Below are positions 7,589 to 39,965 of a stretch of 42,839 bases of DNA, one piece after another (position 1 is the first letter of the stretch; the number at the start of each line of letters is the position of its first letter). The DNA comes from an uncultured Burkholderiales bacterium. GTDB taxonomy: Bacteria; Pseudomonadota; Gammaproteobacteria; Burkholderiales; Burkholderiaceae_C. The stretch is from contig CAJCDH010000175.1 in NCBI GenBank assembly GCA_903961095.1, forward strand, positions 1 through 42,839, read 5' to 3'. Below the pieces are notes generated by a model. It did no database searches and was not told where the DNA came from. It saw nothing but the letters and a program-made list of their open reading frames with translations. The translations under genes were made by a program, and so were the position numbers.

Positions 7589-10006
7589 TCAAACTGCTTC
7601 GTGAAGCACGACATCGACAGGCACACCCCATAACTCGGCCTGCGCTTGCAGGTTTTGGATGTCTTGTTGTGCCCAATGGCCTCGGATGTAGCCCAAAGCC
7701 ATCATCGTGCCGGCCTCATAACCCCAACCAGCCGATGTGACCTCACCCACAAATTGACCTGCCACACTCAATGGCTCACCACCCCATAAATAATGTTGCG
7801 CCTCTTTGACAACAATTTTCACAAGCTTCTTCTCAGGTTTAAATGCGGCTTGGGCTTTTCTCGCAAGCAAAGCTTTCTTGCCTTTAAAGTCAGTTGTCTT
7901 ATTGAGTTTGACACCAGCCCACAGGCCTGCTTCAAAAGGCGTTTCATCGGGGCCCATCTCTGCGCCCCATGCTCGCCTTTGACGCTCTATGCGAAGTGCG
8001 TCCAATGCGAAGTAACCAGCATCGCGCAAACCCAGATCTGCACCAACCCCTTGGAGTGCAAGATAGACATGCCGTGTCATTTCGACTGGCACATACAACT
8101 CATATCCAGGCCCTCCCACATAACTCATTCGTGCAACACGCACTTTAGCGTGACCTAAATCAATTTCGCGAGTGTGTGCAAAAGGCAATCCTTGGGGTGA
8201 AAGATCTTCGTGCGAAAGCCTTGAAATCAAAGCCAGGGAATTGGGGCCCATCAAGGACAAGACGCAAAACTGCGCAGAGACATCATCCATGTAGACTTGC
8301 ATTTCTGAGGTGACATGTCTTTGTAGCCAATCCAAATCGCGCGTTGTTTGACCTGAACCTGTGATGACCATGAAGCGATCTGTGTTCAAGCGAATGACCG
8401 TGAGATCACTTTCAAAACCACCTCTATCGTTCAAAAGAGGGGTGTAAACCATCTTGCCAATGGCCACATCCATTTCATTGGCGCACATGATTTGTAAAAA
8501 AGCCAACGCGTCTCGGCCCCTGACAGAGAGTTTTGAAAACGAACTCTGATCGTACAAAGCCACAGCCTCACGGGTGGCTTTTTGTTCTGCCTGCACCCAT
8601 GGCAACCAATCTGGCGTGCCCAAGGTATCTAAAGCGGGTGGCGCATCCGCAGGTCGGAAATAGTTGACCCGCTCCCAGCCATTTTTACTTCCAAACTCTG
8701 CGCCTTTCGCTGCCAAAACGTCATACAAGGGCGAGCAGCGCAAAGGCCGTACCGTTTGCAACTCTTGCCTTGGCCAACGCATGGCGTAGTGCAAGCCCAG
8801 TGTCTCGGCAGTGCGTTCTGAAAGCGCCTTTCGGTTGCCCGTAAATGCGCCAAATCTGCGCACATCCACATCCCACAAATCAACACTGGGTTCACCGCCC
8901 ACAATCCACTCCGCCATCAAGCGGCCGGCACCGCCAGAGTTGGCAATGCCAGCTGAATTGAAACCAGCACACACAAAATAGTTTCGAACTTCAGGCGCTT
9001 CACCCAAAATGAAATTGCCGTCGGGTGTGAAACTTTCAGGTCCATTTAGCAACATTTTGACCTTGGCCGTTTCCAAACATGGCGTGCGGTGAATGGCGTT
9101 TTGCATCAAAATTTCAAACTGGTCCCAATCCTCACCTAACAACTCAAATTGAAAAGTAGACGGAATGGGGTGCACATTCCAAGGCTTGGCTACAGGCTCA
9201 AAGCCGCCCATGACCAGGCCTCCCACTTCTTCTTTGTAATAGATGTAGCCATCGGGATCGCGCACCACGGGCCACATGGGGTGAATGCCCTCAATCTTGT
9301 CGGTCACAATGTAGAAATGTTCGGCGGAATAGAGCGGCACATTGACACCGGCCAACTGTCCAAATTGTCGCGCCCATTGACCGGCACAATTCACCAAGAT
9401 GTCACACTGAATATCGCCTTGCTTGGTTTTCACACCCTTCACACGACCTTCATTCAATTCAACGCCTGTGACTTCTATGTCTTCAAAAATTTTGATGCCA
9501 CGCAGCCTTGCACCTTTGGCCAAAGACATGCACAAATCAGCAGGATTGGCTTTGCCGTCTCCAGGAATCCAAATACCGCCGGCCAGGTCATCGGTTCTAA
9601 GCAAGGGTGCGCGCTCACCCACCTCTTGCGGCGTAATTTCATGAGCCTCCACACCAAAGCTTCTAGCCAATGCAATTTGCTTGCGCAAAACTTTCATGCG
9701 CTCTGGCGTGCGCGCCACATTCACACTGCCACATTGCTTCCAACCTGTCGCCAAGCCTGTTTCTGCCTCTAGCGTTGAATAAAGTTCAATGCCGTACTTG
9801 CTCATTCGCGTCATGTTTCGATTGGGACGCATTTGCCCTACCAATCCTGCGGCGTGCCAAGTTGTACCGCTGGTTAGCTTGCCCTGCTCTAAAAGAACCA
9901 CATCGGTTTGACCCAACTTGGCCAAGTGATACGCCACAGAACAGCCTGCAATGCCGCCACCCACAATCACAATTTTGGCCTGTGTTGGAAAGCTTTGTGT
10001 TGCCAT
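7589..10006 (-). CDS. FAD-dependent dimethylglycine/sarcosine dehydrogenase-like protein with C-terminal GcvT domain
   Basis: N-terminal Rossmann KIVIVGGGIAGCSVAYHL; GTTWHAAGLVG, matching the covalent-FAD His motif of the DMGDH/SARDH family; GcvT-like C-terminal half (GYELYVP, WAGVKLNKTTDFKGKKALL). Confidence 0.9.
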   Translation of the reverse strand: MATQSFPTQAKIVIVGGGIAGCSVAYHLAKLGQTDVVLLEQGKLTSGTTWHAAGLVGQMRPNRNMTRMSKYGIELYSTLEAETGLATGWKQCGSVNVARTPERMKVLRKQIALARSFGVEAHEITPQEVGERAPLLRTDDLAGGIWIPGDGKANPADLCMSLAKGARLRGIKIFEDIEVTGVELNEGRVKGVKTKQGDIQCDILVNCAGQWARQFGQLAGVNVPLYSAEHFYIVTDKIEGIHPMWPVVRDPDGYIYYKEEVGGLVMGGFEPVAKPWNVHPIPSTFQFELLGEDWDQFEILMQNAIHRTPCLETAKVKMLLNGPESFTPDGNFILGEAPEVRNYFVCAGFNSAGIANSGGAGRLMAEWIVGGEPSVDLWDVDVRRFGAFTGNRKALSERTAETLGLHYAMRWPRQELQTVRPLRCSPLYDVLAAKGAEFGSKNGWERVNYFRPADAPPALDTLGTPDWLPWVQAEQKATREAVALYDQSSFSKLSVRGRDALAFLQIMCANEMDVAIGKMVYTPLLNDRGGFESDLTVIRLNTDRFMVITGSGQTTRDLDWLQRHVTSEMQVYMDDVSAQFCVLSLMGPNSLALISRLSHEDLSPQGLPFAHTREIDLGHAKVRVARMSYVGGPGYELYVPVEMTRHVYLALQGVGADLGLRDAGYFALDALRIERQRRAWGAEMGPDETPFEAGLWAGVKLNKTTDFKGKKALLARKAQAAFKPEKKLVKIVVKEAQHYLWGGEPLSVAGQFVGEVTSAGWGYEAGTMMALGYIRGHWAQQDIQNLQAQAELWGVPVDVVLHEAV

Positions 10007-10882: not shown

Positions 10883-11434
10883 TCAGGCTCTCAAAGCACA
10901 ACGTCTTGCAATTTGCATGTAATGGGAAAGCTCTGGCGTCTGAGTCTCTGGCTGTTTGGCCAAGTCATCCCAGAGTCTCAAACGAACTGCATCTGGCGCA
11001 CCAGGTTCTGCTATGAATTGAGCAGCTTCTTCTGCCGAAAAAATACCGCCTTGCAGTTTCAAGCTTCGCTTGGAGTCTTCAGACAAAGCACCGTAGTATT
11101 CAGGACGGGTGGCACACAAGTATCGTTTGGCATCCACATGACGCTGAACCGCATCAATGACCGCTTCAGAGAAAAGTCCGCGCATAAAGGGAACTACGCG
11201 GTATTGATGCACGTCATCTACACCCTGCATGCTGGGTGTTTCTCCCAAGTCATGCAACAAATGTCCCAAGTCGTGCAGAAAAGCTGCCGTGACCAATTCG
11301 TCGCTAGCCCCCTCTTGCTCACCCAAGTAGGCTGACTGCAAAGCATGTTGCAGTTGTGTCACAGGTTCACCGCTGTACTGCTCATGGCCGCGTTGTTGAA
11401 ACAATGTTTCGATGTCGTTAAGTGTCAAGGCCAT
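10883..11434 (-). CDS. PhnZ/TmpB-like HD-domain oxygenase (phosphonate operon HD protein)
   Basis: YSGEPVTQLQHALQSAYLGEQEGASDELVTAAFLHDLGH...HVDAKRYL; agrees with PhnZ as I recall it (YIGEAINQLEHSLQ...AALLHDLGH...HVAAKRYL). Confidence 0.88.
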   Translation of the reverse strand: MALTLNDIETLFQQRGHEQYSGEPVTQLQHALQSAYLGEQEGASDELVTAAFLHDLGHLLHDLGETPSMQGVDDVHQYRVVPFMRGLFSEAVIDAVQRHVDAKRYLCATRPEYYGALSEDSKRSLKLQGGIFSAEEAAQFIAEPGAPDAVRLRLWDDLAKQPETQTPELSHYMQIARRCALRA

Positions 11435-11461: not shown

Positions 11462-13117
11462 TCATTCCGACAAAAGATCAGGCTGTTTAAGTCGTGTGCT
11501 TGTCAGCGCTCCTGCTTGTTCTAAGATGGGATATGCAATGGAACAAATGTGCGAATTGATGCGTTTCAAATCGCTGATTAAATCAATGTGCAAAGAACTG
11601 GTGCCGATACTTTGAGGTGTGTTTTCCTGTAAACGCGCCAAATGACGATTGGCGTATTCATGCTCTAAGTTTCTGAATTGCACTTTTTGCTCTAACAGTG
11701 CTTGTGCATTGCGCACGCCGCCTTCTAAGAAAACACTCATGCCCAATTGCAAGTTGGTCACCAAGCGTTGGTGTAAATCTTCAATTTCTGCAAATCCAGC
11801 TTCTGAAAAATTTCGACCTTTGGCAATTTTTTTGTCTTCAATGTCTTGAAGCACTCGCTCAATGATATCGCCCACTTGCTCCATATTGATGGCAAATGAC
11901 ATGATGTCGGCCCACCGCTGACCTTCTCTTTGTGACAAAGCCTCGCGCGAAATTTGAGTCAAATAAAATTTGATAGCGGAATACAAATCATCCACTCCAT
12001 CGTCCATATCACGCAACTTAGCAGCCAGCAAAGCATCGTCGTTTTGAATCACTGGCACGATACCGCGCAACATAGTCTCGACCACATCAGCTTGGTGTAA
12101 AGCTTCACGCGCTGCGCATGAAATGGCCAAGGAAGGCGTTGATAAAGCTGTCGGGTCAAGATATTTGGGCTGAACTTTGTTGTTATCAACTTCAGCTGAA
12201 GGTAGGTAATTGGTCAACCACTTGGCAATTTTGCCTGTGAACATGAACATTGACATCGCAAGTAACACATTGAACATGAAGTGAAAACTCACCACCGGAT
12301 CAAAACCTAGGGCTTGGATATTGTTTGCAAAAGGAAGGTAAAAACTTAAAAAAGGTATGGCTAGCGTACAACCAAGCGCTTTAAAGATTAGATTTCCCAA
12401 GGGCACACGTCGTACATCAGAAGATGATTTGGACATGGTTAAAAAAGCCAGCAAGCCACTGCCCAAATTGGCACCCAAGACCAAGCCCAAGGCCATGGGT
12501 AAGGAAACTACTTGTGTATGGCAAAGCGTGGCTGTAAGCAAGACCATGGCCAAACTAGAATATGAAATGACTGTTAAAAGTGCACCAATCAAAATCAAAA
12601 TTACAGGGTCATTGGGCAAGACGCTAAGCAGAACATGCATGCCATGAGACTGGGTGATGGGCGTTGTTGCTTCAACAATCAAGTGCAATGCCAGGGTCAT
12701 CAAACCCAAACCAATCGATACGCGACCCCATCGGCCCCACGTGTTGTTTTGGTTGGCAACAAACACCACTACCCCAAGCACAATCAACAAGGGCGACAAC
12801 CAACTCAAATCAAATGAGAACATCAAAGCCATCAAGCTGGTGCCCACATCAGCACCAAGCATCATGATGAGTGCCGTTGAGGTGAGAAACATACCCTGCC
12901 CAACAAAAGAGCTCACGATCAAACAAGTGGCTGTACTAGATTGCAGCAGGCTGCTAACCCCTAAACCTGATACGAAAGCTAATGCAGGCTTATTGACGCT
13001 GCTGGCCAATAAATCTCGCAGAGAAACGCCTAGAACTCGCAATATGCCAGTGCGCACGGTGTGCGTGCCCCACACCAAAAGTGCAATGGCTGCCAGCAAG
13101 TTCAAGAGGTTGTGCAT
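11462..13117 (-). CDS. Na+/phosphate cotransporter (NptA/PNaS family) with C-terminal PhoU-like helical domain
   Basis: LLQSSTATCLIVSSFVGQG (QSSSATT-like motif) repeated as ISYSSLAMVLLTATL; C-terminal region resembles PhoU (FAINMEQVGDIIERVLQDIEDK). Start reset to MHNLLNLLAAIALLVWG, avoiding a 100-bp overlap with phnY. Confidence 0.88.
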   Translation of the reverse strand: MHNLLNLLAAIALLVWGTHTVRTGILRVLGVSLRDLLASSVNKPALAFVSGLGVSSLLQSSTATCLIVSSFVGQGMFLTSTALIMMLGADVGTSLMALMFSFDLSWLSPLLIVLGVVVFVANQNNTWGRWGRVSIGLGLMTLALHLIVEATTPITQSHGMHVLLSVLPNDPVILILIGALLTVISYSSLAMVLLTATLCHTQVVSLPMALGLVLGANLGSGLLAFLTMSKSSSDVRRVPLGNLIFKALGCTLAIPFLSFYLPFANNIQALGFDPVVSFHFMFNVLLAMSMFMFTGKIAKWLTNYLPSAEVDNNKVQPKYLDPTALSTPSLAISCAAREALHQADVVETMLRGIVPVIQNDDALLAAKLRDMDDGVDDLYSAIKFYLTQISREALSQREGQRWADIMSFAINMEQVGDIIERVLQDIEDKKIAKGRNFSEAGFAEIEDLHQRLVTNLQLGMSVFLEGGVRNAQALLEQKVQFRNLEHEYANRHLARLQENTPQSIGTSSLHIDLISDLKRINSHICSIAYPILEQAGALTSTRLKQPDLLSE

Positions 13118-13121
13118 TCTT

Positions 13122-14579
13122 TCAAACCCAAGGGATTGAATAGGTTTTGATATTCGTAAAACTCTTGATGGCTTCTTGCACACCTTCTTTGTAGCCCAAG
13201 CCAGAATCCTTGATACCGCCAAATGGTGTCAGTTCGAGTCGGTAGCCAGGTACCTCTCGCACATTCACTGTGCCCATTTGAAGTTCATTCACAAAGCGCA
13301 CGATGTAGTCCATTCGATTGGTACACACCCCACTCGAAAGGCCATAGGCTGTGCCATTGGCGATTTGAATGGCCTCATCAATGTTCTTAAACTGAATGAT
13401 GGGCGAAACAGGGCCAAAGGTTTCCTCTTTCACCAGCATCATTTCGGGCGACACTTGGTCTAAAACTGTAGGCGAATACAAGGCACCTTGGCGCTCGTTT
13501 CCTACTAACAAACGCGCGCCCTGTGCAAGGGCTTCGTTGACCCGCGACTCAAAAAATTGGGCCGCGGCCTCATCAATCACGGTACCCATCAAATGATCTG
13601 AATTAGAAGGGTCGCCATACGACCACGCCTTGGTTTTTTGCACCACCAAATCTGTAAATTCAGCAGCCACCGATTGGTGCACCAACATGCGCTTGACAGC
13701 TGTGCAGCGCTGGCCCGAATTTTTATAAGACCCCTGAACAGCCAAGTTGGAAGCCTCTTCCAAATCAGCATCTTCCATCACAATAAGTGGATCGTTGCCA
13801 CCCAACTCCAACACGATGCGGCGATAGCCAGCTTTATTGGCAATGTACTTACCAATGGCAACACCACCTGTAAATGTAATGAGATCAACACTAGGGTGCG
13901 TCAACATCTCATCGGCAATTTCTCGTGGATCGCCAGTCACCACACTCAGCATCTCAGGTGGCAAGCCAGCTTCGTACAACAAGTCGGCAAAATAGATGGC
14001 TGAGAATGGCACCTTCTCCGAAGGCTTCAGAACCATGCGATTGTTTGTGGCAATGCTGGGAATCACTTTGTGCGCCACTTGATTCATAGGGTGATTGAAG
14101 GGCGTGATAGCCGTGATCACGCCCAACAATGGCGCGCGTTGTGTGTAAACACGACGTTGCTTGCCATGGTGTGTTAGGTCACAACTGAAAATTTGTCCAT
14201 CGTCTTTCAGAACCTCTTGAGCGCCAAACAACAACACATCACTGACACGTCCAGCTTCATACACAGCATCTTTAATGCACAAACCAGCTTCTGCTGAAAT
14301 GAGATTGGCAATGTCATTGAGGTGATCTCGCACCAAGGCTGCTGCCTTGTTCAGAATGGCCGCTCTTTCGAATCTTGACAATTTGGGTTGGTAGCCATGC
14401 GCCAAGCTATAGGCTAGCCTAACTTCTTCTAGCGTCGCTTTAGGTACCGTGCCTAAGCGCTCAGTTGTGAAAGGGTTGAAAACATCAATGGCACGCTCTC
14501 GACCTGCGCCTATTTTTTGACCCCCAATGCGCATGGCATTGAGTTGATGTTCTTGGATAAATTGGGCGACTTGACTCAT
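13122..14579 (-). CDS. phnY: Phosphonoacetaldehyde dehydrogenase (ALDH superfamily)
   Basis: ALDH motifs VLELGGNDPLIV, NSGQRCTAVKR; located between phnA and nptA in a phosphonate operon. Start at MSQVAQFIQ. Confidence 0.85.
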   Translation of the reverse strand: MSQVAQFIQEHQLNAMRIGGQKIGAGRERAIDVFNPFTTERLGTVPKATLEEVRLAYSLAHGYQPKLSRFERAAILNKAAALVRDHLNDIANLISAEAGLCIKDAVYEAGRVSDVLLFGAQEVLKDDGQIFSCDLTHHGKQRRVYTQRAPLLGVITAITPFNHPMNQVAHKVIPSIATNNRMVLKPSEKVPFSAIYFADLLYEAGLPPEMLSVVTGDPREIADEMLTHPSVDLITFTGGVAIGKYIANKAGYRRIVLELGGNDPLIVMEDADLEEASNLAVQGSYKNSGQRCTAVKRMLVHQSVAAEFTDLVVQKTKAWSYGDPSNSDHLMGTVIDEAAAQFFESRVNEALAQGARLLVGNERQGALYSPTVLDQVSPEMMLVKEETFGPVSPIIQFKNIDEAIQIANGTAYGLSSGVCTNRMDYIVRFVNELQMGTVNVREVPGYRLELTPFGGIKDSGLGYKEGVQEAIKSFTNIKTYSIPWV

Positions 14580-14599: not shown

Positions 14600-16565
<1,966 letters not shown>

Positions 16566-16589: not shown

Positions 16590-16607
16590 TAAATTGTCAA
16601 CAATTTA
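16590..16607. promoter_or_regulatory. Probable GntR operator
   Basis: TAAATTGT-CA-ACAATTTA: perfect 8-bp arms around a 2-nt centre in the gntR/phnS divergent promoter; core TTGTCAACAA resembles FadR-subfamily GntR sites. Overlaps a minus-strand TTGACA (-35 like, 16600-16595). Confidence 0.65.
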
Positions 16608-16648
16608 CAAAAAACAATTGACATCCGACTATGCTTGGTTTCCAATGA

Positions 16649-16677
16649 TTTTCATGGGCTTGTCACACCACTGTCAC
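16649..16677 (+). promoter_or_regulatory. Putative Pho box (three PhoB-like heptamers, 11-bp period)
   Basis: TTTTCAT-gggc-TTGTCAC-acca-CTGTCAC, upstream of phnS; same architecture as the CTGTCAT-N4-CTGTCAT Pho box. Confidence 0.6.
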
Positions 16678-16722: not shown

Positions 16723-17754
16723 ATGCGCGCACTTTATAAATCCGCTCTGCTGGTCGGCGGTCTTTTAATAGGCTCAATGGCTTTGGCTCAAAAAACCCAA
16801 CTCTTGGTCTATACCGCACTCGAAGTTGACCAACTGAAAGCTTATCAAGAAGGCTTCAACAAAGTTCACCCTGAAATTGACATCAAATGGGTTCGCGATT
16901 CAACTGGTGTGATCACTGCCAAACTTTTGGCAGAAAAAGCCAACCCGCAGGCAGACGCCGTGATGGGCGTTGCAGCCACCAGCTTGGCCTTGATGAAGAA
17001 AAACGGCATGCTCGAGCCCTTTGCACCGCTGAATTTGGACGGCCTCATGCCTCAATACCGCGACAAGGCCAATCCACCCTCTTGGTGGGGCATGAATGTT
17101 TGGGGCGCCACCATTTGCTTCAACACCGTTGAAGCCAAAAAACGCAACATTCCAAAACCAGAAACATGGAAAGACCTCACCAAGCCTGAATACAAAGGTC
17201 AAGTGGTCATGCCCAATCCCGCTTCCAGCGGTACCGGTTATTTTGATGTCATCGCATGGCTCACATTGTTTGGTGACCAAAACGGCAAAGGCGGCGGCTG
17301 GAAGTACATGGACGGCTTGCATGAAAACATTGCGCAATACACTCACTCTGGCTCCAAGCCTTGCAACATGGCGGCAAGCGGCGAGTATGTGGTCGGTATC
17401 TCTTTTGAGTACCGCGCCAATGCCAATAAAGCCAAAGGCGCTCCTATCGATTTGGTCTTCCCCAAAGAAGGTTTAGGCTGGGATCTTGAGTCTTTTGCCA
17501 TTCACAAAGGCACCAAGAAACTAGACGCCGCCAAGAAATTGGCCAACTGGGCTTCAAGCAAAGATGCGATGAAGCTTTATGGCAAAAACTTCGCCATTAC
17601 AGCGCACCCCGGCGTGGCCGATCCATTGCCCAATGTGCCCAAAGACTATGAGTCACGTTTGGTCAAATTGGACTTCGAATATGCCGCTGAACAACGCGAG
17701 CGTATTTTGAACGAATGGAATGCCCGTTACAACGGAAAATCTGAAAAGCGTTAA
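16723..17754 (+). CDS. phnS: 2-aminoethylphosphonate ABC transporter substrate-binding protein
   Basis: Signal peptide MRALYKSALLVGGLLIGSMALAQ; iron/phosphonate-type SBP (LLVYTALEVDQLKAYQEGF...YKGQVVMPNPASSGTGYFDVIAWL); next to phnT, permease and phnW. Confidence 0.88.
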   Translation: MRALYKSALLVGGLLIGSMALAQKTQLLVYTALEVDQLKAYQEGFNKVHPEIDIKWVRDSTGVITAKLLAEKANPQADAVMGVAATSLALMKKNGMLEPFAPLNLDGLMPQYRDKANPPSWWGMNVWGATICFNTVEAKKRNIPKPETWKDLTKPEYKGQVVMPNPASSGTGYFDVIAWLTLFGDQNGKGGGWKYMDGLHENIAQYTHSGSKPCNMAASGEYVVGISFEYRANANKAKGAPIDLVFPKEGLGWDLESFAIHKGTKKLDAAKKLANWASSKDAMKLYGKNFAITAHPGVADPLPNVPKDYESRLVKLDFEYAAEQRERILNEWNARYNGKSEKR

Positions 17755-17808: not shown

Positions 17809-18882
17809 ATGTCTGCAGCCAGCCACTATCTTTCCCTTTCTCACCTGCATAAAGCCTTTGGCAATTTTGTTGCTCTGCAAGACATCAATCTCGACATTGT
17901 TCCTGGCGAATTAATTTGCTTCTTAGGACCTTCTGGTTGCGGTAAAACGACCTTACTGCGCATCATTGCGGGTCTCGAAGTTCAAACACATGGGGCCATT
18001 TACCAAGCTGGCAAAGACATCTCACGCGCGCACCCGGCAGAGCGCGATTACGGTATCGTTTTTCAAAGTTATGCCCTTTTTCCCAACCTCAACGTTGCAG
18101 ACAACGTCGCCTATGGCTTGGTGAACCGAAAAATGGCAAGGGCCCTGGTGTCAAAGCGGGTTCAAGAACTTCTCAAATTGGTGGGCCTGCCTGGCAGTGA
18201 CAGTAAATACCCAAGCCAACTGTCCGGCGGGCAGCAGCAACGCATTGCGCTGGCACGCGCCTTGGCCACATCACCAGGTCTCCTCCTATTAGATGAACCT
18301 TTGTCTGCATTGGATGCACTTGAGCGTGTCCGTTTGCGACAAGAGATACGAACACTTCAGCAAAGCTTGGGAGTGACCACCATCATGGTCACTCACGACC
18401 AAGAAGAGGCCTTGAGCATGGCCGATCGCATTGTGGTCATGAACCATGGTTGCATTGAACAAGTGGGCACGCCTACAGAAATATACAGAGAACCTGCCAC
18501 TGCCTTTGTGGCTGAATTTGTAGGCCAAGTCAATGTTTTGCAAGGCATCGTCAAAGACAGTCAACTGTTCTTGGGCAACATGCAAATTGACATGCACGAC
18601 ATCACTGGCAAATCCAGGCAAGCTGGCGACGTGAAAGTCTATTTGCGGCCAGAAGACATTTTGGCGCGGCCGATCTTAGCGGGAGATGCCTGCGTGTTTC
18701 AAGCTGAACTGATAGAGATTGATTTTTTAGGTGCCTTCTGCCATGTACACGTTCAAGCTCCAGCCCTTTCAAACAAACCACTGACTGTGTATTTGTCACT
18801 GAACTTTTTGGCAGAGCAACAACTTCAAGTTGGCTCCAAGCTAGCGATGAAACTGATGCCAGAGCGCATTAAACTTTTCTAA
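17809..18882 (+). CDS. phnT: 2-aminoethylphosphonate ABC transporter ATP-binding protein
   Basis: Walker A GPSGCGKTT, signature LSGGQQQRIALARAL, Walker B LLLLDEPLSALD; start after the terminator at MSAASHYLSLSHL. Confidence 0.9.
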   Translation: MSAASHYLSLSHLHKAFGNFVALQDINLDIVPGELICFLGPSGCGKTTLLRIIAGLEVQTHGAIYQAGKDISRAHPAERDYGIVFQSYALFPNLNVADNVAYGLVNRKMARALVSKRVQELLKLVGLPGSDSKYPSQLSGGQQQRIALARALATSPGLLLLDEPLSALDALERVRLRQEIRTLQQSLGVTTIMVTHDQEEALSMADRIVVMNHGCIEQVGTPTEIYREPATAFVAEFVGQVNVLQGIVKDSQLFLGNMQIDMHDITGKSRQAGDVKVYLRPEDILARPILAGDACVFQAELIEIDFLGAFCHVHVQAPALSNKPLTVYLSLNFLAEQQLQVGSKLAMKLMPERIKLF

Positions 18883-18889
18883 ATCAGGT

Positions 18890-20587
18890 ATGTCTCTCGC
18901 TATCCCACAGGTCACTCAGCGCAAGCACTGGAGCGACTGGCTTGGCTTTTTGGGTTTGACCTTGGCCCTGCTGGTGCTTCTGACTTTCTTAGCGGCACCA
19001 CTTCTAGCCATCTTGCAACAGGCCGCACAGGATGATCAAGGTCAATATGTGGGTCTGCGAAACTTTGCAGCCTATCTACAAACACCTGCTTTGTTGTACA
19101 GCCTTTGGAACAGCGTTTGGGTTTCCGCGCTCGTTACCTTGATTGTGGTGCCACTGGCATTTTTGTTTGCCTATGCTTTGACGCGAAGTTGCATGAGGGG
19201 CAAAGTCCTATTTAGAGCCATTAGCCTCATTCCCTTGCTAGCCCCCTCCCTGCTGTCAGCCATTTCATTGATTTATTGGTTTGGCAATCAGGGCGCTTTG
19301 AAAGGTCTCCTACAAGCGGTCGGCATCGATCAAATCTATGGTGCGTCCGGCATTGTCATTGCAGAATGCTTTGCGGTATTTCCACATGTGCTCATGATTT
19401 TGGTCACTGCACTCACATTGGCAGATGCACGCTTGTACGAGGCTGCTGCTGCATTGGGCACGCCGGCCAGCCGTCAATTTTTCACCATCACTTTGCCAGG
19501 CGCCAAATATGGTTTGATCTCAGCCTCATTGGTCAGCTTTACCTTGGTCATGACCGACTTTGGCATCCCCAAAGTTATTGGCGGCAACTTCAACATGATG
19601 GCCACCGATATTTTCAAACTGGTCATTGGTCAACAAGACTTTGCCAAAGGTTCTGTGGTGGCCTTGCTTTTGTTGTCGCCAGCAGTCTTGAGTTTTGCAG
19701 TGGATCGTTATGTCAGCGCTCGCCAAACAGCCATGCTTAGCGCTCGGGCTGTGGCCTTCCAGCCCAAACCAGATGCTCAGCACGACACCCTCATGATGCT
19801 CTACTGCATCTTCATTTCTGCTTTGATGCTGGCGATGTTGGGCATGGCAGTGTTTGCTTCATTTGCCAGTTTCTGGCCTTATGACCTTACTCCCAGCTTG
19901 CGGCATTACAAGCTTGGCTTGGTTGATGGCGAAGTGGGTGTAGGGTTCATCAACAGTCTTGAGATGGCTTCTGGCACAGCAGTTTTTGGTACTCTGCTTG
20001 TCTTTGTCACCGCCTACCTTCTCGAAAAAACCAAAGGCATGAACAGCCTGCGAGCACCGCTTCAATTGCTTGCGGTCATTCCCATGGCCGTGCCGGGCTT
20101 GGTGTTGGGCTTGGGCTATATTTTCTTTTTCAACATGCCAAGCAACCCGCTGCATGGCATGTACCAAAGCATGGCCTTGCTCACGCTCTGTACCATCGTG
20201 CATTTTTATACCACTGGCCATCTCACTGCCACAACCGCCTTGAAGTCTTTGGATGCCGAATTTGAATCTGTCAGCGCATCTTTGAAGGTTCCTTTTTACA
20301 AAACCTTTTGGCGTGTCACTTTGCCCATTTGCACACCAGCCATGGTCGACATTGCCCGCTATTTTTTCATCAACGCAATGACTACCATTTCAGCTGTGGT
20401 TTTCTTATACTCACCAGAAACCAAAGTAGCATCCATAGCCATTTTGAATTTAGATGAGGCTGGCGATATTGGCGCTGCCGCAGCCATGGCCGTGCTCATT
20501 GGCTTAATTTCTGCAACTGCAACCGCGCTCTTTGCTTGGCTCAGTTGGTTTGTAGACAAGCGAACGCAGGCCTGGCGCAGGCGTTAA
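18890..20587 (+). CDS. Fused (two-module) 2-aminoethylphosphonate ABC transporter permease
   Basis: 565 aa with two BPD-permease modules ([26 protein letters not shown] and [26 protein letters not shown]). Confidence 0.88.
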
Positions 20588-20617: not shown

Positions 20618-20649
20618 CACTCACATTAATAATTGAGACATCTTTCACC

Positions 20650-21765
20650 ATGCAACGCGAAGCCATTCTTCTCACACCTGGCCCTTTAACGACCACCCTG
20701 CGAACCAAGTTGGCCATGTTGCGCGACTGGGGTTCATGGGACAGTGAATTCATTGCTGTCACAGCCCGCGTTCGCAAAAGTCTTTTGAACATTGTGCATG
20801 GCCAAGAATCCCATGTAGTGGTTCCCCTTCAAGGCAGCGGCACTTTCAGCGTTGAAGCGGCGGTGGCCACTGTAGTGCCGCCAACTGGGCATGTCTTGGT
20901 GTTAGACAATGGCGCATATTGCAAGCGCGCCGCCAAGCTCTCCACCATGATGGGGCGCAAAACCACCGTGGTGGCAACGCCTGAAGATCAGTGCGTCTCA
21001 CCTCATCAGCTTGAATCACTTTTAAGCAATGACCCCAGCATGACCCATGTGGTCCTTATTCACTGTGAAACTGGCGCTGGCGTGTTAAATCCATTGCACG
21101 ACATCGCCAAGGTGTGTGAAAAACATGGCAAAGGCCTGATCGTTGATGCCATGAGCTCTTTTGCAGCACTGGAAATTGATGCCCGCACCACACGCTTCGA
21201 TGCCCTGATTGCCGCCAGCGGTAAATGTCTTGAAGGCGTGCCAGGCATGGGCTTCGTGTTCATCCGCAAAGCCATCTTGGACAGTTGCGCTGGCAACAAC
21301 ACGTCATTGGCCATGGACTTGCACGACCAATACGTTTACATGGAAAAGACAGGACAATGGCGTTTTACGCCGCCAACTCACGTGATGGTGGCTTTGGCCG
21401 AAGCCATACAACAGTTTGAGGACGAGGGCGGTCAACCCACGCGATTGAAGCGCTACCAAAGCAATTGCAAAACTTTATTAGATGGCATGGCCGAATTGGG
21501 CTTCCAGCCTTACCTCGATCCTTCTGTACAAGCACCCATTATTGTGACCTTCCATGCACCGGCCGATGCCAACTACGAATTTAGAAAATTCTATGAAGCA
21601 GCCAAGAAACATGGCTTCATTTTGTACCCAGGCAAGCTCACAGAGATAGAAACCTTTCGTGTAGGTTGCATTGGTGCCATTGGCCCCATTGAAATGCAAC
21701 AGGCTGTTCATGCTGTGGCACTCACATTGAAAGAGTTGGGCATCGCCAGCGGCGCACCTGCTTGA
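20650..21765 (+). CDS. phnW: 2-aminoethylphosphonate-pyruvate transaminase
   Basis: [16 protein letters not shown]...[12 protein letters not shown]...[13 protein letters not shown]...IVDAMSSF...[16 protein letters not shown]; class V aminotransferase PhnW pattern. Confidence 0.95.
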
Positions 21766-21811: not shown

Positions 21812-23185
21812 ATGGTCACCTCCAAAGTACATCCTGCACTTACAGCGGTTGAGAAAAGTGGCGCTCAAAAAGTCAAAGTGGCTGTGAGTGACATCGATGG
21901 AATTTTGCGTGGCAAGTATTTGCACATCGATAAATTCAAAAGCGCTGCTGAGCCCTACCCTGCGGGTGGTTTTGGTTTTTGTGATGTGGTGTTTGGCTGG
22001 GACTCTTCAGACCAGTGCTATGACAACACATCGGTCACTGGCTGGCAACACGGCTTTCCAGACGCCTTGGCGCGCTTGGACCTTGATACCGCACGCAAGG
22101 TTCCCTGGGACAACAATGTGCCCTTTTTTATAGGCGAATTCATTAACAGCGATGGCACACCCCATCCACTGTGCCCACGCCAAACCTTGAAAAAAGTTTT
22201 GAAACGTGCCGCAACAATGGGGCTCAATCCCATGTGCGGCATGGAGTTTGAATGGTTCAATTTCTTAGAAAATTCACATTCATGGCAAAGCAAGAAAGGT
22301 GTAGAGCCCACCCCCCTAACGCCTGGCATGTTTGGCTATTCTTTATTGCGCATGAATCAAAACCGCGAGTTCTTCAATGCCATTCAAGATGAAATGCTTC
22401 AGTTTGGTGTCCCCATCGAAGGCCTGCACACCGAAACAGGGCCTGGTGTTTATGAAGCCGCCATTGCGTTTAGCGATGCCCTCACGCAAGCCGACCGAGC
22501 CATCTTGTTCAAAACCGGCACCAAAGAAATTGGCGCTCGATTTGGCATCATGCCCAGCTTCATGGCCAAATGGAATGCTGCACTGCCGGGCTGTAGCGGC
22601 CACATTCACCAAAGCTTGAGCGATGGCAAAAAGAATTTGTTTGCCGACGCCAAAGGCCGCCATGGCATGAGCCAAGTTTTTGAAAGCTACTTGGCGGGAC
22701 AAGTGGCTCACCTGATGGAATTTGCGCCCATGTTTTGGCCCACCATCAACAGCTACAAGCGTTTGGTTGATGGTTTCTGGGCCCCCGTCAAACCCACATG
22801 GGGCGTTGACAACCGCACCGCCAGTTTCCGAGTGATTGCAGGCTCCCCCAAATCAACCCGGTTAGAAACCCGCTGCCCTGGTGCCGACGTCAACCCTTAC
22901 TTGGCCATGGCCGCAGTCATTGCAGCGGGTCTAGATGGTGTTGAAAAAGGCATGAAACTCACAGCACCCGCCATCCACGGTACCAATGGCGGTGCGGAAA
23001 ACATTCCCCGTGCGCCCAGAACCTTGATTGAAACCACACGCAATTTCCAACAGTCCAAAGTAGCACGTGATTGGTTGGGCGATACATTTGTGGATCACTT
23101 TTCAGCCACCCGCGAATGGGAATGGCGTCAATGGTTGGATGGCGTGACCGACTGGGAACTCAAACGCTATTTCGAAATCATTTAA
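21812..23185 (+). CDS. Glutamine synthetase family protein (gamma-glutamylpolyamine/amine synthetase-like)
   Basis: GMEFEWFNF (catalytic Glu), ETGPGVYEAAI, GCSGHIHQSLSDG, NSYKRLVDGFWAP, ASFRVIAG, TRLETRCPGADVNPYLAMAA; lacks the full GlnA-I N-terminal and adenylylation features. Confidence 0.88.
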   Translation: MVTSKVHPALTAVEKSGAQKVKVAVSDIDGILRGKYLHIDKFKSAAEPYPAGGFGFCDVVFGWDSSDQCYDNTSVTGWQHGFPDALARLDLDTARKVPWDNNVPFFIGEFINSDGTPHPLCPRQTLKKVLKRAATMGLNPMCGMEFEWFNFLENSHSWQSKKGVEPTPLTPGMFGYSLLRMNQNREFFNAIQDEMLQFGVPIEGLHTETGPGVYEAAIAFSDALTQADRAILFKTGTKEIGARFGIMPSFMAKWNAALPGCSGHIHQSLSDGKKNLFADAKGRHGMSQVFESYLAGQVAHLMEFAPMFWPTINSYKRLVDGFWAPVKPTWGVDNRTASFRVIAGSPKSTRLETRCPGADVNPYLAMAAVIAAGLDGVEKGMKLTAPAIHGTNGGAENIPRAPRTLIETTRNFQQSKVARDWLGDTFVDHFSATREWEWRQWLDGVTDWELKRYFEII

Positions 23186-23216
23186 TTTAAATTTTCAGAT
23201 CAAACTGGACACCTTT

Positions 23217-24350
23217 ATGAGCATTGACAAATTTTCATTCCCCACCCCCATTCACTTTGGCGTGGGGGCCCGCAAACTGGTGGGGCAACATTTGAAAAAC
23301 TTAGGTTACAAACGCCCCCTGATCGTGACCGACAAAGCCATGGCGAACTTGCCCCTGATGGCCGAGTTCATCGGCCACCTAGCAGGCTTGGAAGTGGCTG
23401 TCTATGCAGGCGTGCATGGCAACCCAACGGCATCACAAGTCACCGCTGGCGGTGCTGCGTTCAAGGCTCACAACGCCGATTGCGTCATTGGCTTGGGCGG
23501 CGGCGCCTCCTTGGACGTGGCCAAAGTGGTGGGCTTGTCTGCCACCCACGACGGCCCCATTTTGGAATACGCATGGGATCATCCCAATGTGCGCAGCATC
23601 ACTGGCGCATTGCCCTACTTTGTTGCACTTCCCACAACCTCAGGCACGGGTTCTGAGGTAGGCCGCTCTAGCGTGGTAAGTGAAGACGACACACATCAAA
23701 AGCGTGTCATTTTTCATCCCAAGTTGTTGGCACAAACGGTGTTTGCCGACCCAGAGCTGACTGTGGGTTTGCCTGGCAAGATCACTGCGGCCACTGGCAT
23801 GGATGCACTGACTCACAACATTGAAAGCTATTTGTCGCCTGCTTACCACCCATTGTGCGACGGTATCGCTTTAGAAGGCACTCGCATTGGCGCTGCAGCT
23901 TTGCACACAGCTGTGCATGAACCCCATAACCTCAAAGCTCGCAGCGACATGATGATGTCCTCCATGATGGGCGCAATTGCATTCCAAAAAGATTTGGGTG
24001 CGGTGCATTCTTGCGCGCATGCCTTGGGTGCTGTGCTTGACATGCACCATGGCTTGGCCAACGCGCTCATGATCGATGTGGTCATGGCCTGGAACTACGA
24101 AGCTGTACCAGAAAAATTCAATGAACTTGCGCACGTTTGCCATGTCAAAGGCGGCGGCAGTGCCTTTGTGCCTTGGCTCCAAGAATTGAAATTGTCGATT
24201 GGCATCACTGGCAATTTATCCTCGCACGGTGTGAAGGCCGAGCATCTGCCGCGCTTGGTTGAAATTGCGACGGCCGACATTTGTCACCAAACTAACCCGC
24301 GCCCTTGCACTGCAGCCGATTTTGAAAAGCTGTTCAAGGCAGCGATGTAA
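23217..24350 (+). CDS. Iron-containing (group III) alcohol dehydrogenase
   Basis: GLGGGASLDVAK, LPTTSGTGSEVG, GMDALTHNIESYLS, HSCAHALGAVLDMHHGLANALM. Confidence 0.93.
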   Translation: MSIDKFSFPTPIHFGVGARKLVGQHLKNLGYKRPLIVTDKAMANLPLMAEFIGHLAGLEVAVYAGVHGNPTASQVTAGGAAFKAHNADCVIGLGGGASLDVAKVVGLSATHDGPILEYAWDHPNVRSITGALPYFVALPTTSGTGSEVGRSSVVSEDDTHQKRVIFHPKLLAQTVFADPELTVGLPGKITAATGMDALTHNIESYLSPAYHPLCDGIALEGTRIGAAALHTAVHEPHNLKARSDMMMSSMMGAIAFQKDLGAVHSCAHALGAVLDMHHGLANALMIDVVMAWNYEAVPEKFNELAHVCHVKGGGSAFVPWLQELKLSIGITGNLSSHGVKAEHLPRLVEIATADICHQTNPRPCTAADFEKLFKAAM

Positions 24351-24363
24351 AGACAAGGTTTCT

Positions 24364-25149
24364 ATGTCATTGAATTCAAAGCGCCTCAAGATTGGCATCT
24401 CAGCCTGCTTCTTTCATCCTGACAGCGAGCGTCCTATCTTCAAAGGCAAGACGCTTCAGTACATCGAACAGTCTGTTGCGCATTGGGTGATGTCACAAGG
24501 CGACTTGGCAGTCATGATCCCCTCACCCGAAGGCGAGACTCAGGTGGGTGATGTGCAAATAGCCGACTACGCCCAATGGCTAGATGCTGTGGTGCTCATG
24601 GGCGGCAGTGATGTATGGCCCGGTAGCTATGGCGAAGAGGTGATGGATCCCCGCTGGGCGGGAGACAAGGTGCGCGATGCTTACGAAAAAAAATTGATCG
24701 AATCTTTTGTGGCTGCTGACAAACCCGTGCTGGGTGTATGCCGCGGCATGCAAATGATCAACGTGGCTTTTGGCGGCACTTTGTACCAAGACATTGCCAC
24801 GCAAAAACCGGAGGCACTCATGCACCGCGATGGCGTGAAGTACGACCTCAACCTGCACGAAGTGCATTTCAAACCCAATAGCAAACTTTCGAATTTATTA
24901 GGCGGCGTCAGTCAAGCCAAAGTCAACAGCATTCACCATCAAGGCGTGAAAGATCTGGCCGCTAACTTTGTGGTTGAAGCCTACTGCCCACACGACCAAA
25001 TTCCAGAGGCCATTCGATTTGAGGGCAATGCTTACATCGCTGCGGTGCAATGGCATCCTGAGTTTCACAAAGCGGCCCTTGGCACCTTGGATGACTCACC
25101 TATCCTTACCGACTTTTTAAATGCAGCACGCAGCAAGCAATCTGTTTAA
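24364..25149 (+). CDS. Gamma-glutamyl hydrolase, PuuD-like class I glutamine amidotransferase (peptidase C26)
   Basis: Catalytic GVCRGMQMINVAFGGTLYQDI and AVQWHPEFH; start set at MSLNSKRLKIGISACFF. Confidence 0.9.
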   Translation: MSLNSKRLKIGISACFFHPDSERPIFKGKTLQYIEQSVAHWVMSQGDLAVMIPSPEGETQVGDVQIADYAQWLDAVVLMGGSDVWPGSYGEEVMDPRWAGDKVRDAYEKKLIESFVAADKPVLGVCRGMQMINVAFGGTLYQDIATQKPEALMHRDGVKYDLNLHEVHFKPNSKLSNLLGGVSQAKVNSIHHQGVKDLAANFVVEAYCPHDQIPEAIRFEGNAYIAAVQWHPEFHKAALGTLDDSPILTDFLNAARSKQSV

Positions 25150-25194
25150 GCGTCCATTCTTCAATTCAACACTCCGAACCGCATTGGACTTTTT

Positions 25195-26580
25195 ATGAAA
25201 CTGCTAGACGTCATCAACCCTGCTACCGAAGAATTGATTACCCAACTGCGCATCGACGATGGCGCAGCCGTGACCATCAAGGCGCAAAAAGCCCGCAACG
25301 CACAAGCCTCATGGGCCGCCACATCTTTGGCGCATCGCATGGCATGCATTCAGCGTTTCCGTGGCTTGGTTCTGACGCAACTTGACGACCTTGCCAACAT
25401 CATGACGCAAGAAACTGGCAAGCCCTTGGGCCATTCGCGCAACGAATTGAACGGTTTCTTAGGCCGCGTCGATTTCTTTTTGGCTGAAGCTGAAAATATT
25501 CTTCAAACCGAAACGGTTTACGAGCAAGATGGTATGCGCGAGCAAATTCAACACATCCCCCTTGGCTTGATTGGCAACATCTCTGCTTGGAACTATCCTT
25601 GGTTTGTGGGTGGCAATGTGTTTGTGCCTGGCCTGCTCATGGGCAATGCCATTTTGTACAAACCTTCAGAGTTTGCCGCTATGAGCGGCATGGCCATGGG
25701 CCGATTGCTGCATGAGGCAGGCATTCCAGAAGACGTTTTCGCTACCCTCGTGGGCGCAGCCGACACCGGCAACGCTTTGCTTGCACAGCAACTCGACGGC
25801 ATGTTCTTTACTGGCTCATTGGCCACGGGCCAACACATCGCCAATGTCATGGGCCCGCGCATGACCAAACTGCAACTGGAATTGGGCGGCAAAGATCCCA
25901 CTTATGTGTGCGCCGATGCCGACCCTGTGGCGGCCGCTCAATCATTGGCCGATGGCGCCATGTACAACGCAGGGCAAAGCTGCTGCTCGGTCGAGCGTAT
26001 TTATGTGCATGCCAGCATTCATGACCAATTTGTGCAATCACTGGTCGATACAGTTCGCACCTTCAAAATGGGCGACCCCATGGCAGCAGACACCTACCTT
26101 GGCCCGCTTACGCGTGCCCCACAGCTCAAAGTGTTGGAAGATCAAATTGCAGATGCCAAAGCCAAAGGTGCGCGTTGTTTGCTGGGCGGTCAGCGCAGCA
26201 AAGGCCCCATGGGTGGCAGAGGCAATTGGTTTGAAGCCACAGTTTTTGACAACGTGAACCACAGCATGTCGCTGATGCGCGACGAAAGTTTTGGACCCAT
26301 CATAGGCATTCAAAAAGTGAGTGACGACGCAGAGGCTATTCGCCTCATGAACGACACGCAATATGGTTTGACAGCTGGCGTCTACACGCCCAGCGAACAA
26401 CACGCTCGTGAAGTACTTTCACAAGTTCGCGCAGGCACCGTGTACTGGAACTGTTGTGACCGCGTCAGCCCACGCTTGCCATGGAGTGGCTATGGCCATT
26501 CAGGCGTTGGCCTCACTTTGTCTCGCGAAGGCTTGGCCACATTCACGCGCCCTAAAGCTTGGCATTTGCGCAGCAATTGA
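25195..26580 (+). CDS. NAD(P)-dependent aldehyde dehydrogenase
   Basis: ISAWNYPW, LQLELGGKDPTYV, NAGQSCCSVERIYVH; ALDH superfamily. Confidence 0.92.
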   Translation: MKLLDVINPATEELITQLRIDDGAAVTIKAQKARNAQASWAATSLAHRMACIQRFRGLVLTQLDDLANIMTQETGKPLGHSRNELNGFLGRVDFFLAEAENILQTETVYEQDGMREQIQHIPLGLIGNISAWNYPWFVGGNVFVPGLLMGNAILYKPSEFAAMSGMAMGRLLHEAGIPEDVFATLVGAADTGNALLAQQLDGMFFTGSLATGQHIANVMGPRMTKLQLELGGKDPTYVCADADPVAAAQSLADGAMYNAGQSCCSVERIYVHASIHDQFVQSLVDTVRTFKMGDPMAADTYLGPLTRAPQLKVLEDQIADAKAKGARCLLGGQRSKGPMGGRGNWFEATVFDNVNHSMSLMRDESFGPIIGIQKVSDDAEAIRLMNDTQYGLTAGVYTPSEQHAREVLSQVRAGTVYWNCCDRVSPRLPWSGYGHSGVGLTLSREGLATFTRPKAWHLRSN

Positions 26581-26581
26581 C

Positions 26582-27244
26582 ATGCGCTTGGCCCTTTTCG
26601 ACTTAGACCACACCCTGCTCAATGGGGACAGCGATCAGTTATGGTGTGATTTTTTGATCGACAAAGACTTGCTCGACAAGGACATTTTCTCTGCTAAAAA
26701 TGAAGCTATGGCGCGCGACTACAAATCAGGTGCCGTCGATGTGCAGGCATTTTGTGAGTTTTACATTGGCACCCTGACGCTCAAATCACCTGCTGACTGG
26801 GAATTACTTCGTCAAGAATTTTTAAGCGGATGGGTGGCGCCGCGCTTGTGCGCTGGTGGCCAAGCACAAATCAAAGCGCATCAAGCCAAAGGCGATCTTG
26901 TTGTCATAACCACTGCCACCAATCGGTTCATTACAGAGTTAACTGCCACACACTTAGGCGTACAGAATCTGCTTGCCACTGAAGCCGAAATGCAAGGGGG
27001 TTTGTTTACCGGCAAAACGGCAGGCATTCTGAATATGCGCGAAGGCAAAGTCAGCCGGCTCAAGATGTGGTGCAAAGAAAACAATTTAGACTGGGCTGAT
27101 CTAGAAACTTGGGGCTATAGTGATTCCATCAACGACCTGCCGCTTCTGACAGCCGTCACGCACGCTACCGTCACGCAAGGTGATATGAAGTTGCGGGCTG
27201 AGGCTGCCAAAAGGGGCTGGCCCCAAATTGATTGGTTTGAATGA
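26582..27244 (+). CDS. HAD-IB (SerB-like) phosphatase
   Basis: Motif I LALFDLDHTLLNGD, motif II VVITTATNRF, motif IV YSDSINDLPLL; start reset to the ATG 2 nt after the ALDH stop. Confidence 0.88.
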   Translation: MRLALFDLDHTLLNGDSDQLWCDFLIDKDLLDKDIFSAKNEAMARDYKSGAVDVQAFCEFYIGTLTLKSPADWELLRQEFLSGWVAPRLCAGGQAQIKAHQAKGDLVVITTATNRFITELTATHLGVQNLLATEAEMQGGLFTGKTAGILNMREGKVSRLKMWCKENNLDWADLETWGYSDSINDLPLLTAVTHATVTQGDMKLRAEAAKRGWPQIDWFE

Positions 27245-28702: not shown

Positions 28703-29521
28703 TCAATCAGATTTAGCTTGCCCCATGTATTGCGTCAGAATCAGAAGAACCGAAGTGATCAGCACAATGAGGGTAGAAATTGCGGCAATGGTGGGGTCTA
28801 CCTGATCACGCAAGGCGTTGAACATGTTGCGCGTCAAGGTTGAGTTATCGCCCCCCGAGACAAACAAAGCCACAATAATTTCATCAAAAGAAGTTAAAAA
28901 TGCCAATACGGCACCCGAAACAACAGCAAATTTTATTTGAGGCAAGGTGACAGACCAAAACGCATACAACGGTGAAGCACCCAAACTGCGCGCAACGCGT
29001 TCTTGATCCATGTCATAAGATTTAAGCGCCGATCCCACCACCAACATCACCACGGGAATGGCCAACATGCAGTGCGCTAAGACCAAGCCTAGCAATGTAT
29101 TCACTAATTTGAGCTTCACATAAGCATAGAAAACGCCAATACCAATCAAGATAACGGGAACCACCATAGGTGTCAGCAACAACATCCAAATCCAGTTCAC
29201 ATGCTTGAAGCGAGATGTATGCAAGCCATAAGCAGCCATGGTGGCAAAGGGTGTAGCAAGCAACGCAGTGAGCAAACCCGCCTTCAAAGAAGTGGCAGTA
29301 GCCTGCATCCAAGCTGCAGAGTTGAAGTACGCTTCATACCACCTGAACGACCATTTTCTGGGTGGAAACTCCAAATACTGCGAAGCAGAAAAGGACATAG
29401 GCACAACCAACAAAGTTGGAATAACCAAGAAGGTCATCACGACGATGGCCACGGCATAAAGCCACAACCGAGACTGATGTGTAATTTGGGTGTCTGTCGC
29501 GGGTTGGCTTAACCAAGTCAT
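28703..29521 (-). CDS. Polyamine-type ABC transporter permease (PotC-like)
   Basis: BPD permease EAA loop VARSLGASPLYAFWSVTLPQIK; multiple TM segments. Confidence 0.9.
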   Translation of the reverse strand: MTWLSQPATDTQITHQSRLWLYAVAIVVMTFLVIPTLLVVPMSFSASQYLEFPPRKWSFRWYEAYFNSAAWMQATATSLKAGLLTALLATPFATMAAYGLHTSRFKHVNWIWMLLLTPMVVPVILIGIGVFYAYVKLKLVNTLLGLVLAHCMLAIPVVMLVVGSALKSYDMDQERVARSLGASPLYAFWSVTLPQIKFAVVSGAVLAFLTSFDEIIVALFVSGGDNSTLTRNMFNALRDQVDPTIAAISTLIVLITSVLLILTQYMGQAKSD

Positions 29522-30405
29522 GCCTTAACCACCTGATTCATTGGATTGGATATTTTCAAAAGCTTCATGAAAATCCAAATAAGCAAAGCAGTCATTGCCA
29601 GTAAAACCACCCCGAGTGCACTCGCAGCACCCCAATTGAAGAAAATTTCAATGTCATTGGCAATTCGGCTAGATACCATGATGACTTTGCCACCGCCCAG
29701 CACAGCCGGCGTTATGTAAAAGCCAAGGCATAAGATGAAAACAATCAAAGCGCCAGTTGCCATTCCTGGCAAGGCCAATGGGAAGAAGACGGACCAAAAT
29801 GTTTTTAGGGGGCTGGCCCCTAAATTGGCGGCAGCACGAAGATAGTTGCGATCGATGGCTCTCATGGAGGAGTACAGCGGCAAGATCAAAAAGGGCAACA
29901 TCACATGAACAGTTCCAATGAGGGTACCCAACATGTTGTGCACCAATGCAACGGGCTCATTCCACAAGCCCAATTCAATGGCCCAGTTGTTAATAAGCCC
30001 CTTGCGTTGTAACAACACAAGCCAAGCATAAGTACGAACTAATAACGATGTCCACAAAGGCAAGAGAACCGCAATCATGCAGATGTTGGCTGCTCGCTTG
30101 GGTAGCTCTGATAAAAAATAAGCCAAAGGGTAGCCAATGACAAGGCAAATTGCGGTGGTCATGAAACTCACCTCAAATGTGGCCTTGAAGGTTCTCAAGT
30201 AGGAAGGCTGCTCCCACATGCGAACATAATGTTCAGTGGTATAGGCTCCAGTATCTGACAACAAAGACAAGTAAAAAAGCCAGCCCACCGGCAGAACCAT
30301 GGTGATCACAATGAGCAACAAGGCTGGGGTTACCAAGCCGAGCAACCACAGTCGCTCAATGCTGTCTGCTCGCTTAAGCGCCAGTGCATTTGGCAATGTG
30401 CTCAA
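29518..30405 (-). CDS. Polyamine-type ABC transporter permease (PotB-like)
   Basis: EAA loop AAANLGASPLKTFWSVFFPLALPG; adjacent to the PotC-like gene. Confidence 0.9.
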   Translation of the reverse strand: MSTLPNALALKRADSIERLWLLGLVTPALLLIVITMVLPVGWLFYLSLLSDTGAYTTEHYVRMWEQPSYLRTFKATFEVSFMTTAICLVIGYPLAYFLSELPKRAANICMIAVLLPLWTSLLVRTYAWLVLLQRKGLINNWAIELGLWNEPVALVHNMLGTLIGTVHVMLPFLILPLYSSMRAIDRNYLRAAANLGASPLKTFWSVFFPLALPGMATGALIVFILCLGFYITPAVLGGGKVIMVSSRIANDIEIFFNWGAASALGVVLLAMTALLIWIFMKLLKISNPMNQVVKA

Positions 30406-31493: not shown

Positions 31494-31509
31494 AGGCAGG
31501 CTTCAAAAA

Positions 31510-32565: not shown

Positions 32566-32666
32566 TGCAATTCTCCCTTGTAAAAAAGACATGAAAACCA
32601 ACCAGAACCGAAATTTTCTGAAGCGCAGGACGTTTCAAATATAGAAATTGATTGGCATCCTCAAAA

Positions 32667-32704
32667 GTGCCATTATCGAAACTCCACCATACCAATTTCA
32701 AAAT
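32667..32704. promoter_or_regulatory. Candidate MocR operator, copy B
   Basis: GTGCCATTATCGAAAC-6-ATACCAATTTCAAAAT, 22-bp period, in the ALDH/SBP intergenic region. Confidence 0.45.
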
Positions 32705-32716
32705 ACTCGAGCAAGC

Positions 32717-35314: not shown

Positions 35315-35349
35315 ACTCACATGATCCCAAGGCATTGGTAGGGAAAGAA

Positions 35350-35387
35350 GGTCCATTTTGAAGAATGAGTGATACCATTTTGAAAAT
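35350..35387. promoter_or_regulatory. Candidate MocR operator, copy A
   Basis: GGTCCATTTTGAAGAA-6-ATACCATTTTGAAAAT: exact CCATTTTGAA direct repeat at 22-bp period between MR-enolase and mocR. Confidence 0.55.
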
Positions 35388-35402
35388 TAAATGGAGTCAA
35401 CG

Positions 35403-36905: not shown

Positions 36906-36911
36906 ACTCAG

Positions 36912-36949
36912 TCTTTTTACGTGGTTTGCTAATATCTTCAAAACGGACC
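36912..36949. promoter_or_regulatory. Candidate MocR operator, copy C (inverted orientation)
   Basis: Minus strand GGTCCGTTTTGAAGAT-6-AAACCACGTAAAAAGA, 22-bp period, upstream of the GMC gene. Confidence 0.45.
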
Positions 36950-37002
36950 TTTTCACCAGACCAATGCCTGTGAAAAACTGAGCTTTTAAAAGCTAAAAAA
37001 CT

Positions 37003-38622: not shown

Positions 38623-38639
38623 CCCAAGGATCAGATTTC

Positions 38640-39932: not shown

Positions 39933-39965
39933 AAGTCAAGCATCATTGCCGCCAAATAAACTGTC

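Follow-up and report, generated by a model that had tools for sequence, protein, structure and literature searches.

A YjbB-type transporter gene in a phosphonate catabolic operon as a candidate phosphate outlet

In Burkholderiales, genes for YjbB-type transporters recur beside the phosphonate genes phnY and phnA, and the adjacency to phnY is not due to chance. We analyzed one such gene in a 42,839-nt stretch of DNA (the window) from an uncultured freshwater member of this order (GenBank assembly GCA_903961095.1, contig CAJCDH010000175.1, forward strand). Its sequence and gene neighborhood suggest that the encoded protein is rather probably a phosphate transporter of the YjbB type whose main role is to let out Pi from the phosphonate pathway. 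Pi excreted by cells growing on 2-aminoethylphosphonate (AEP) feeds primary producers (PMC8316502), and a transporter gene that accompanies phnA and phnY offers a concrete, testable candidate for the release route. If the assignment is correct, it would give YjbB, whose natural role is unclear, a physiological setting, and the gene could be used as a genomic marker for phosphonate users that release rather than keep Pi. A literature search that left most subscription papers outside its reach found no report on YjbB or Na/Pi transport in connection with phosphonate operons.

The operon and the transporter protein

The transporter gene (11462..13117, minus strand) is an intact open reading frame of 551 amino acids with its ATG at 13117 and its end at 11462. 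It begins 4 nt beyond the end of phnY (13122) and is followed after 27 nt by the start of an HD-domain gene (11434), in agreement with a preliminary description of the DNA that had placed an NptA-like gene between these two neighbors with gaps of less than 30 nt. The minus-strand run reads phnR-phnA-phnY-nptA-HD-DMT. Six related loci keep the same gene order, with nptA identities of 83-95%, and on this basis we refer to the host genome as Limnohabitans-like. The cultured Limnohabitans strain 2KL-17 also has nptA placed between phnY and the HD gene. The preliminary description also had the transporter embedded in a phosphonate catabolic operon, and this holds; these neighbors exceed curated family cut-offs: phnR, a GntR-family phosphonate regulator (15831..16565, minus; TIGR03338, 280.7 bits against 271.5); phnA, the phosphonoacetate hydrolase of the Pi-releasing step (14600..15817, minus; TIGR02335, 590.6 bits); phnY, phosphonoacetaldehyde dehydrogenase (13122..14579, minus; TIGR03250, 839.8 bits against 635.65); and Phn-HD, a phosphonate degradation HD-domain oxygenase (10883..11434, minus; TIGR03276, 240.2 bits against 214.6). 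An EamA/DMT-family permease gene (PF00892; 10039..10881, minus) lies 1 nt downstream of the HD gene, and terminator and promoter scans gave nothing clearly above shuffled sequences that would split the operon.

Unlike the TIGR03276 cut-off, the TmpB and PhnZ1 equivalog cut-offs were not reached by Phn-HD, and no recognized hydroxylase partner such as PhnY* or TmpA was noticed nearby. The minus strand also encodes an FAD oxidoreductase fused to a GcvT-type folate domain (7589..10006; PF01266, PF16350, PF01571 and PF08669), possibly an N-methyl-aminophosphonate demethylase. In many phn clusters (seven loci), the gene for this fusion and the DMT permease gene occur together.

The plus strand carries the uptake arm, which consists of phnS2 for a 2-aminoethylphosphonate binding protein (16723..17754; TIGR03261, 479.2 bits, over cut-off), phnT for the AEP transporter ABC ATPase (17812..18882), phnU for its double permease (18890..20587) and phnW for AEP-pyruvate transaminase (20644..21765; TIGR02326, 483.6 bits, over cut-off). 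The phnT and phnU genes were assigned from their open reading frames and from synteny in many phn loci. Directly after phnW (21812-27244) come genes for a glutamine-synthetase-like ligase, an Fe-alcohol dehydrogenase, a C26 gamma-glutamyl hydrolase, an aldehyde dehydrogenase and a HAD phosphatase, a set that we take to resemble a gamma-glutamylation route for ethanolamine. Parts of the set recur beside phn genes at four other loci. As read from its open reading frames alone, the region from 28703 to 42033 is a separate catabolic cluster, with a polyamine-type ABC transporter, an aldehyde dehydrogenase, an enolase-superfamily protein, a MocR-type regulator, and GMC and FAD oxidoreductases.

The membrane part of the transporter contains two Na_Pi_cotrans (PF02690) stretches. 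Repeat 1 (12677..13081, minus) has a QSST motif from residue 59, and in repeat 2 (12386..12646, minus) YSSLA replaces the canonical QSSS from residue 186. Domain and profile searches and a fold match identify the C-terminus as a PhoU-like tail (PF01895, two stretches; residues about 343-528; 11534..12091, minus). The protein passes the cut-off of TIGR00704 for YjbB-type Na/Pi transporters (236.3 bits against 210.1) and fails that of TIGR01013 for NptA/SLC34 importers (269.1 bits against 306.15). It aligns with E. coli YjbB over its full length (46% identity over 534 aa), a protein that RefSeq names putative phosphate export protein. In an alignment of 71 relatives, a QSS-type motif persists in repeat 1, whereas YSSLA or HSSVA is the usual form in repeat 2. 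According to the profile search, QSS is present in both repeats of solved SLC34 proteins; the window protein, with QSST followed by YSSLA, does not have a QSSS-type motif in each. We rejected the NptA importer label because the TIGR01013 cut-off is missed and the close relative is YjbB. The earlier view of a Na+/Pi cotransporter with a PhoU-like tail stands for family and tail, but the label of an NptA-like, low-affinity importer names the wrong subfamily.

An AlphaFold2 model (mean pLDDT 87, pTM 0.57) has a helical membrane part and the tail. The best solved fold matches of the tail are PhoU proteins, including P. aeruginosa PhoU (4q25, target TM 0.88). SLC34 structures were absent from the top fold matches of the model, and thus the membrane part is assigned from the profile match rather than from the fold; a single-sequence PDB search with the transporter found no match, but the profile search did. 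The first half of the tail retains D372xxxD376 and E413xxxD417, and the second-half metal-binding motif is lost (K518, S522), which leaves a PhoU fold with the acidic ExxxD-type motif in one half instead of both. The PhoU-like fold and the conserved acidic residues of its first half would suit a protein that is mainly a regulator, in which the membrane-anchored tail adjusts Pho signaling or the phosphonate enzymes and transport is secondary. However, the membrane part retains the conserved transport motifs QSS and GAN-G, the second PhoU motif is gone, and the host has a separate PhoU beside pst. We consider a mainly regulatory role very improbable.

Linkage to phosphonate genes and other neighborhoods

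The preliminary description had proposed comparative genomics of phnA-phnY-nptA adjacency, and a survey of 399 genomes drawn from the order supports the association. phnY was located 31 times, in 28 of the genomes, and the transporter gene 97 times, in 90 of them. For 12 of the 31 phnY loci, a transporter gene is found no more than 10 kb away, compared to 0.11 expected for random placement, and the corresponding count for phnA is 11 of 42 loci, compared to 0.16 expected; these figures treat loci as independent, though they are not. One of the twelve phnY pairings is weak (a distant homologue 8 kb away), and in the other eleven the two gene starts are at most about 3.1 kb apart. Tight pairing occurs in seven families of the order. 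Linkage to phosphonate systems at large was rejected, since the C-P lyase gene phnJ, used as a control, has the transporter nearby at only 1 of 41 loci. Ten of the 28 phnY genomes contain no YjbB-type transporter, which indicates that the gene is helpful but neither obligatory nor essential.

Because the loci are not independent, the phylogeny of the transporter matters. In a tree of 70 proteins, built by a quick search and including some long branches, the phn label requires nine changes, and at least seven of these are forced by branches with ≥95% support. Gene order also varies. Alphaproteobacterial loci read nptA-phnW-phnA-phnY, phnU-nptA or nptA-phnSTU-W-A-Y, such that the transporter gene is upstream of phnW in four genomes of one genus and on an Aminobacter plasmid, and elsewhere downstream of phnU or beside phnS. 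Such variation in order between lineages points to recruitment on several occasions. Vertical inheritance of one operon was rejected as the full account, given the nine label changes and the differing orders.

The window protein itself groups with 99% support with same-family relatives at unrelated loci, as would be expected if an ancestral yjbB-type gene had settled passively in the operon and were functionally unrelated to it. But the linkage is repeated across separate lineages and gene orders, and we give passive settlement hardly any credence. Within the host genus, a genome rated 100% complete has no match to phnA, phnY or the transporter, and the transporter gene may be gained and lost along with the phn operon.

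Relatives of the transporter are also found in other neighborhoods. At two loci the gene lies beside genes for glycerol-3-phosphate dehydrogenase, a polyamine-type ABC transporter and glycerophosphodiesterase (GDPD); at another it lies beside a PhoD phosphatase and an ABC permease; and on a Rhodobacter plasmid it accompanies ugpBAEC. Two genomes of another family have the transporter followed by an HD oxygenase gene. Pi is the product common to the phosphonate, GDPD, PhoD and ugp settings. There are exceptions. Several close relatives from the same family as the window protein adjoin housekeeping genes, for example one for a class I tRNA synthetase, and at three loci a YjbB-type gene near 9.2-10.8 kb has nucleoside-type ABC permeases on one side and cytosine deaminase/UPRT on the other, a setting that does not obviously release Pi.

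Na/Pi transporters are known to bind phosphonoformate and phosphonoacetate. Together with the tight linkage to phnY and phnA, this raises the question of whether the protein carries a phosphonate such as phosphonoacetate instead of Pi, either as an extra importer or as an exporter of intermediates. Close relatives in the phosphonate-free GDPD/GlpD, ugp and PhoD operons speak against such a substrate, as does the ABC phosphonate transporter that is also present in most phn loci having the gene, and we regard a phosphonate carrier as improbable. For Pi as the substrate, the wider proposal is that recruitment of YjbB-type transporters as dedicated Pi-efflux modules has happened repeatedly, in separate lineages, in Pi-freeing organophosphorus operons (phosphonate or glycerophosphodiester, used for C or N), and that these transporters are hence the route by which Pi returns to the water during phosphonate mineralization. 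We advance this generalization tentatively, as a possibility that falls short of an even chance.

Probable regulatory sites and the predicted direction of transport

The region between phnR and phnS contains two conserved elements. The first, TTTTCATGGGCTTGTCACACCACTGTCAC (16649..16677, plus strand), was identified by an exact-pattern search and has three PhoB half-sites spaced 11 bp apart, the last two of which match YTGTCAYN4YTGTCAY exactly. This is the only exact match in the 3.03-Mb genome, and 0.01 would be expected in the window. When one mismatch is allowed, further matches precede pstS, ppk, phoX and phnC by 51-78 nt and phoD by about 40 nt, so the uptake arm has the upstream PhoB box common to known Pho genes. 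The host genome also contains pst-phoU-phoBR-ppx-ppk and phnC. Because the exact box is unique, near matches precede Pho genes and pst-phoU-phoBR is present, this element very probably functions as a PhoB box that faces the phnSTU-phnW arm. It is retained in the six aligned loci and had not been foreseen in the preliminary description. Exact boxes are found in Limnohabitans-type loci and at one alphaproteobacterial locus, where the orientation is against the operon. Most other nptA-bearing phn operons have none within one mismatch, and the box is unsupported as a general trait of such operons.

The second element, the palindromic AAATTGTCAACAATTTACAAAAAACAATTGACA (16591..16623), is nearer phnR and almost wholly invariant in the six aligned loci, and it is a likely candidate for the PhnR (GntR) operator. 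The catabolic arm with nptA may therefore be under PhnR control and the uptake arm under PhoB control. AEP uptake in this lineage looks to be controlled by Pi starvation, and with a PhoB-controlled uptake arm AEP would be imported when Pi is scarce, such that an excess of Pi is not assured. This conserved box weakens, for this lineage, the earlier premise that Pi is in excess when the phosphonate is used for C or N.

The same Pho boxes tie the locus to Pi starvation and speak for a low-affinity, NptA-like Pi importer that supplements Pst and sits in the phn operon because both acquire phosphorus when Pi is short. True importers exist within the PF02690 family, and the host genome leaves room for one. 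The window gene is the only PF02690 gene found in it, and neither Pit (PF01384) nor the C-P lyase gene phnJ was found; with the assembly about 90% complete, these absences are provisional. The host may have no dedicated Pi importer other than Pst. However, the missed TIGR01013 cut-off and the replaced second QSSS motif count against an importer, as does the lack of linkage to C-P lyase, which is usually controlled by Pi starvation. The closest studied relative, YjbB, is insufficient for Pi import in E. coli (PMC13170248). Na-driven import would also be uphill in fresh water. With assumed freshwater ion levels and assumed internal values of 10 mM Na, 5 mM Pi and -140 mV, import coupled to one to three Na would cost 23-48 kJ/mol. 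Under these values net flux would be outward and export downhill in fresh water; the corresponding calculation for sea water with three Na, again with assumed ion values, gives net inward flux. We consider a supplementary importer unlikely.

Evidence on direction also comes from work on YjbB and on AEP-grown cells. In Pi-rich medium, PhoB is activated when YjbB is over-expressed, and the same work treats yjbB as a Pi exporter (PMC11389368), but its activity at normal levels is described as not known (PMC11850910). The dependence of the export evidence on over-expression counts against the explanation that we prefer. Murphy et al. reported that cells using AEP as N source excrete Pi (PMC8316502), and we found no exporter named in the text of that paper.

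The preliminary description had interpreted the transporter as a possible relief valve for Pi. YjbB homology, the published evidence for Pi export by over-expressed YjbB, the recurrent co-location with phnA/phnY and with other operons that release Pi, and the published Pi excretion on AEP all favor that interpretation, while its subfamily label was wrong and its Pi-excess premise is weakened. The relief-valve reading is partly supported, on stronger comparative grounds than those first offered but with a weaker Pi-excess premise in this lineage. According to the known pathway, AEP would enter through PhnSTU and be converted by PhnW to phosphonoacetaldehyde, which PhnY would oxidize to phosphonoacetate for hydrolysis by PhnA to acetate and Pi. 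A Pi outlet, presumably co-transcribed with phnA and phnY and induced by PhnR, would let Pi out when its release exceeds demand, and the PhoU-like tail may gate it. Export is the predicted direction. Because the uptake arm looks PhoB-controlled, the valve would be left mainly with overshoot protection in this lineage when Pi or AEP supply shifts, since intracellular Pi derived from AEP would rise fast once PhnA is on.

Comparison with known systems

The YjbB proteins of E. coli and Salmonella share with the window protein the two-repeat membrane part, the PhoU tail and YSSLA as the second motif. The genetic setting differs, in that E. coli yjbB is flanked by metH and pepE and belongs to no catabolic operon, whereas the window gene is inside a phosphonate operon. 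The NptA/SLC34 type II Na/Pi cotransporters belong to the same superfamily, with PF02690 repeats and a first QSS motif that aligns to the solved SLC34 chains, but this match covers only the two membrane repeats, and the tail matches PhoU. Compared to PhoU accessory proteins, the tail superposes on 4q25 but is fused to a transporter and no longer has the second-half metal motif. Finally, the window shares phnW, phnA, phnY, phnR and phnS, all over their family cut-offs, with the PhnWAY (PhnW-PhnY-PhnA) clusters for AEP degradation, and differs from these clusters in two additions: nptA, placed between phnY and the HD gene, and a very probable PhoB box on the uptake arm.
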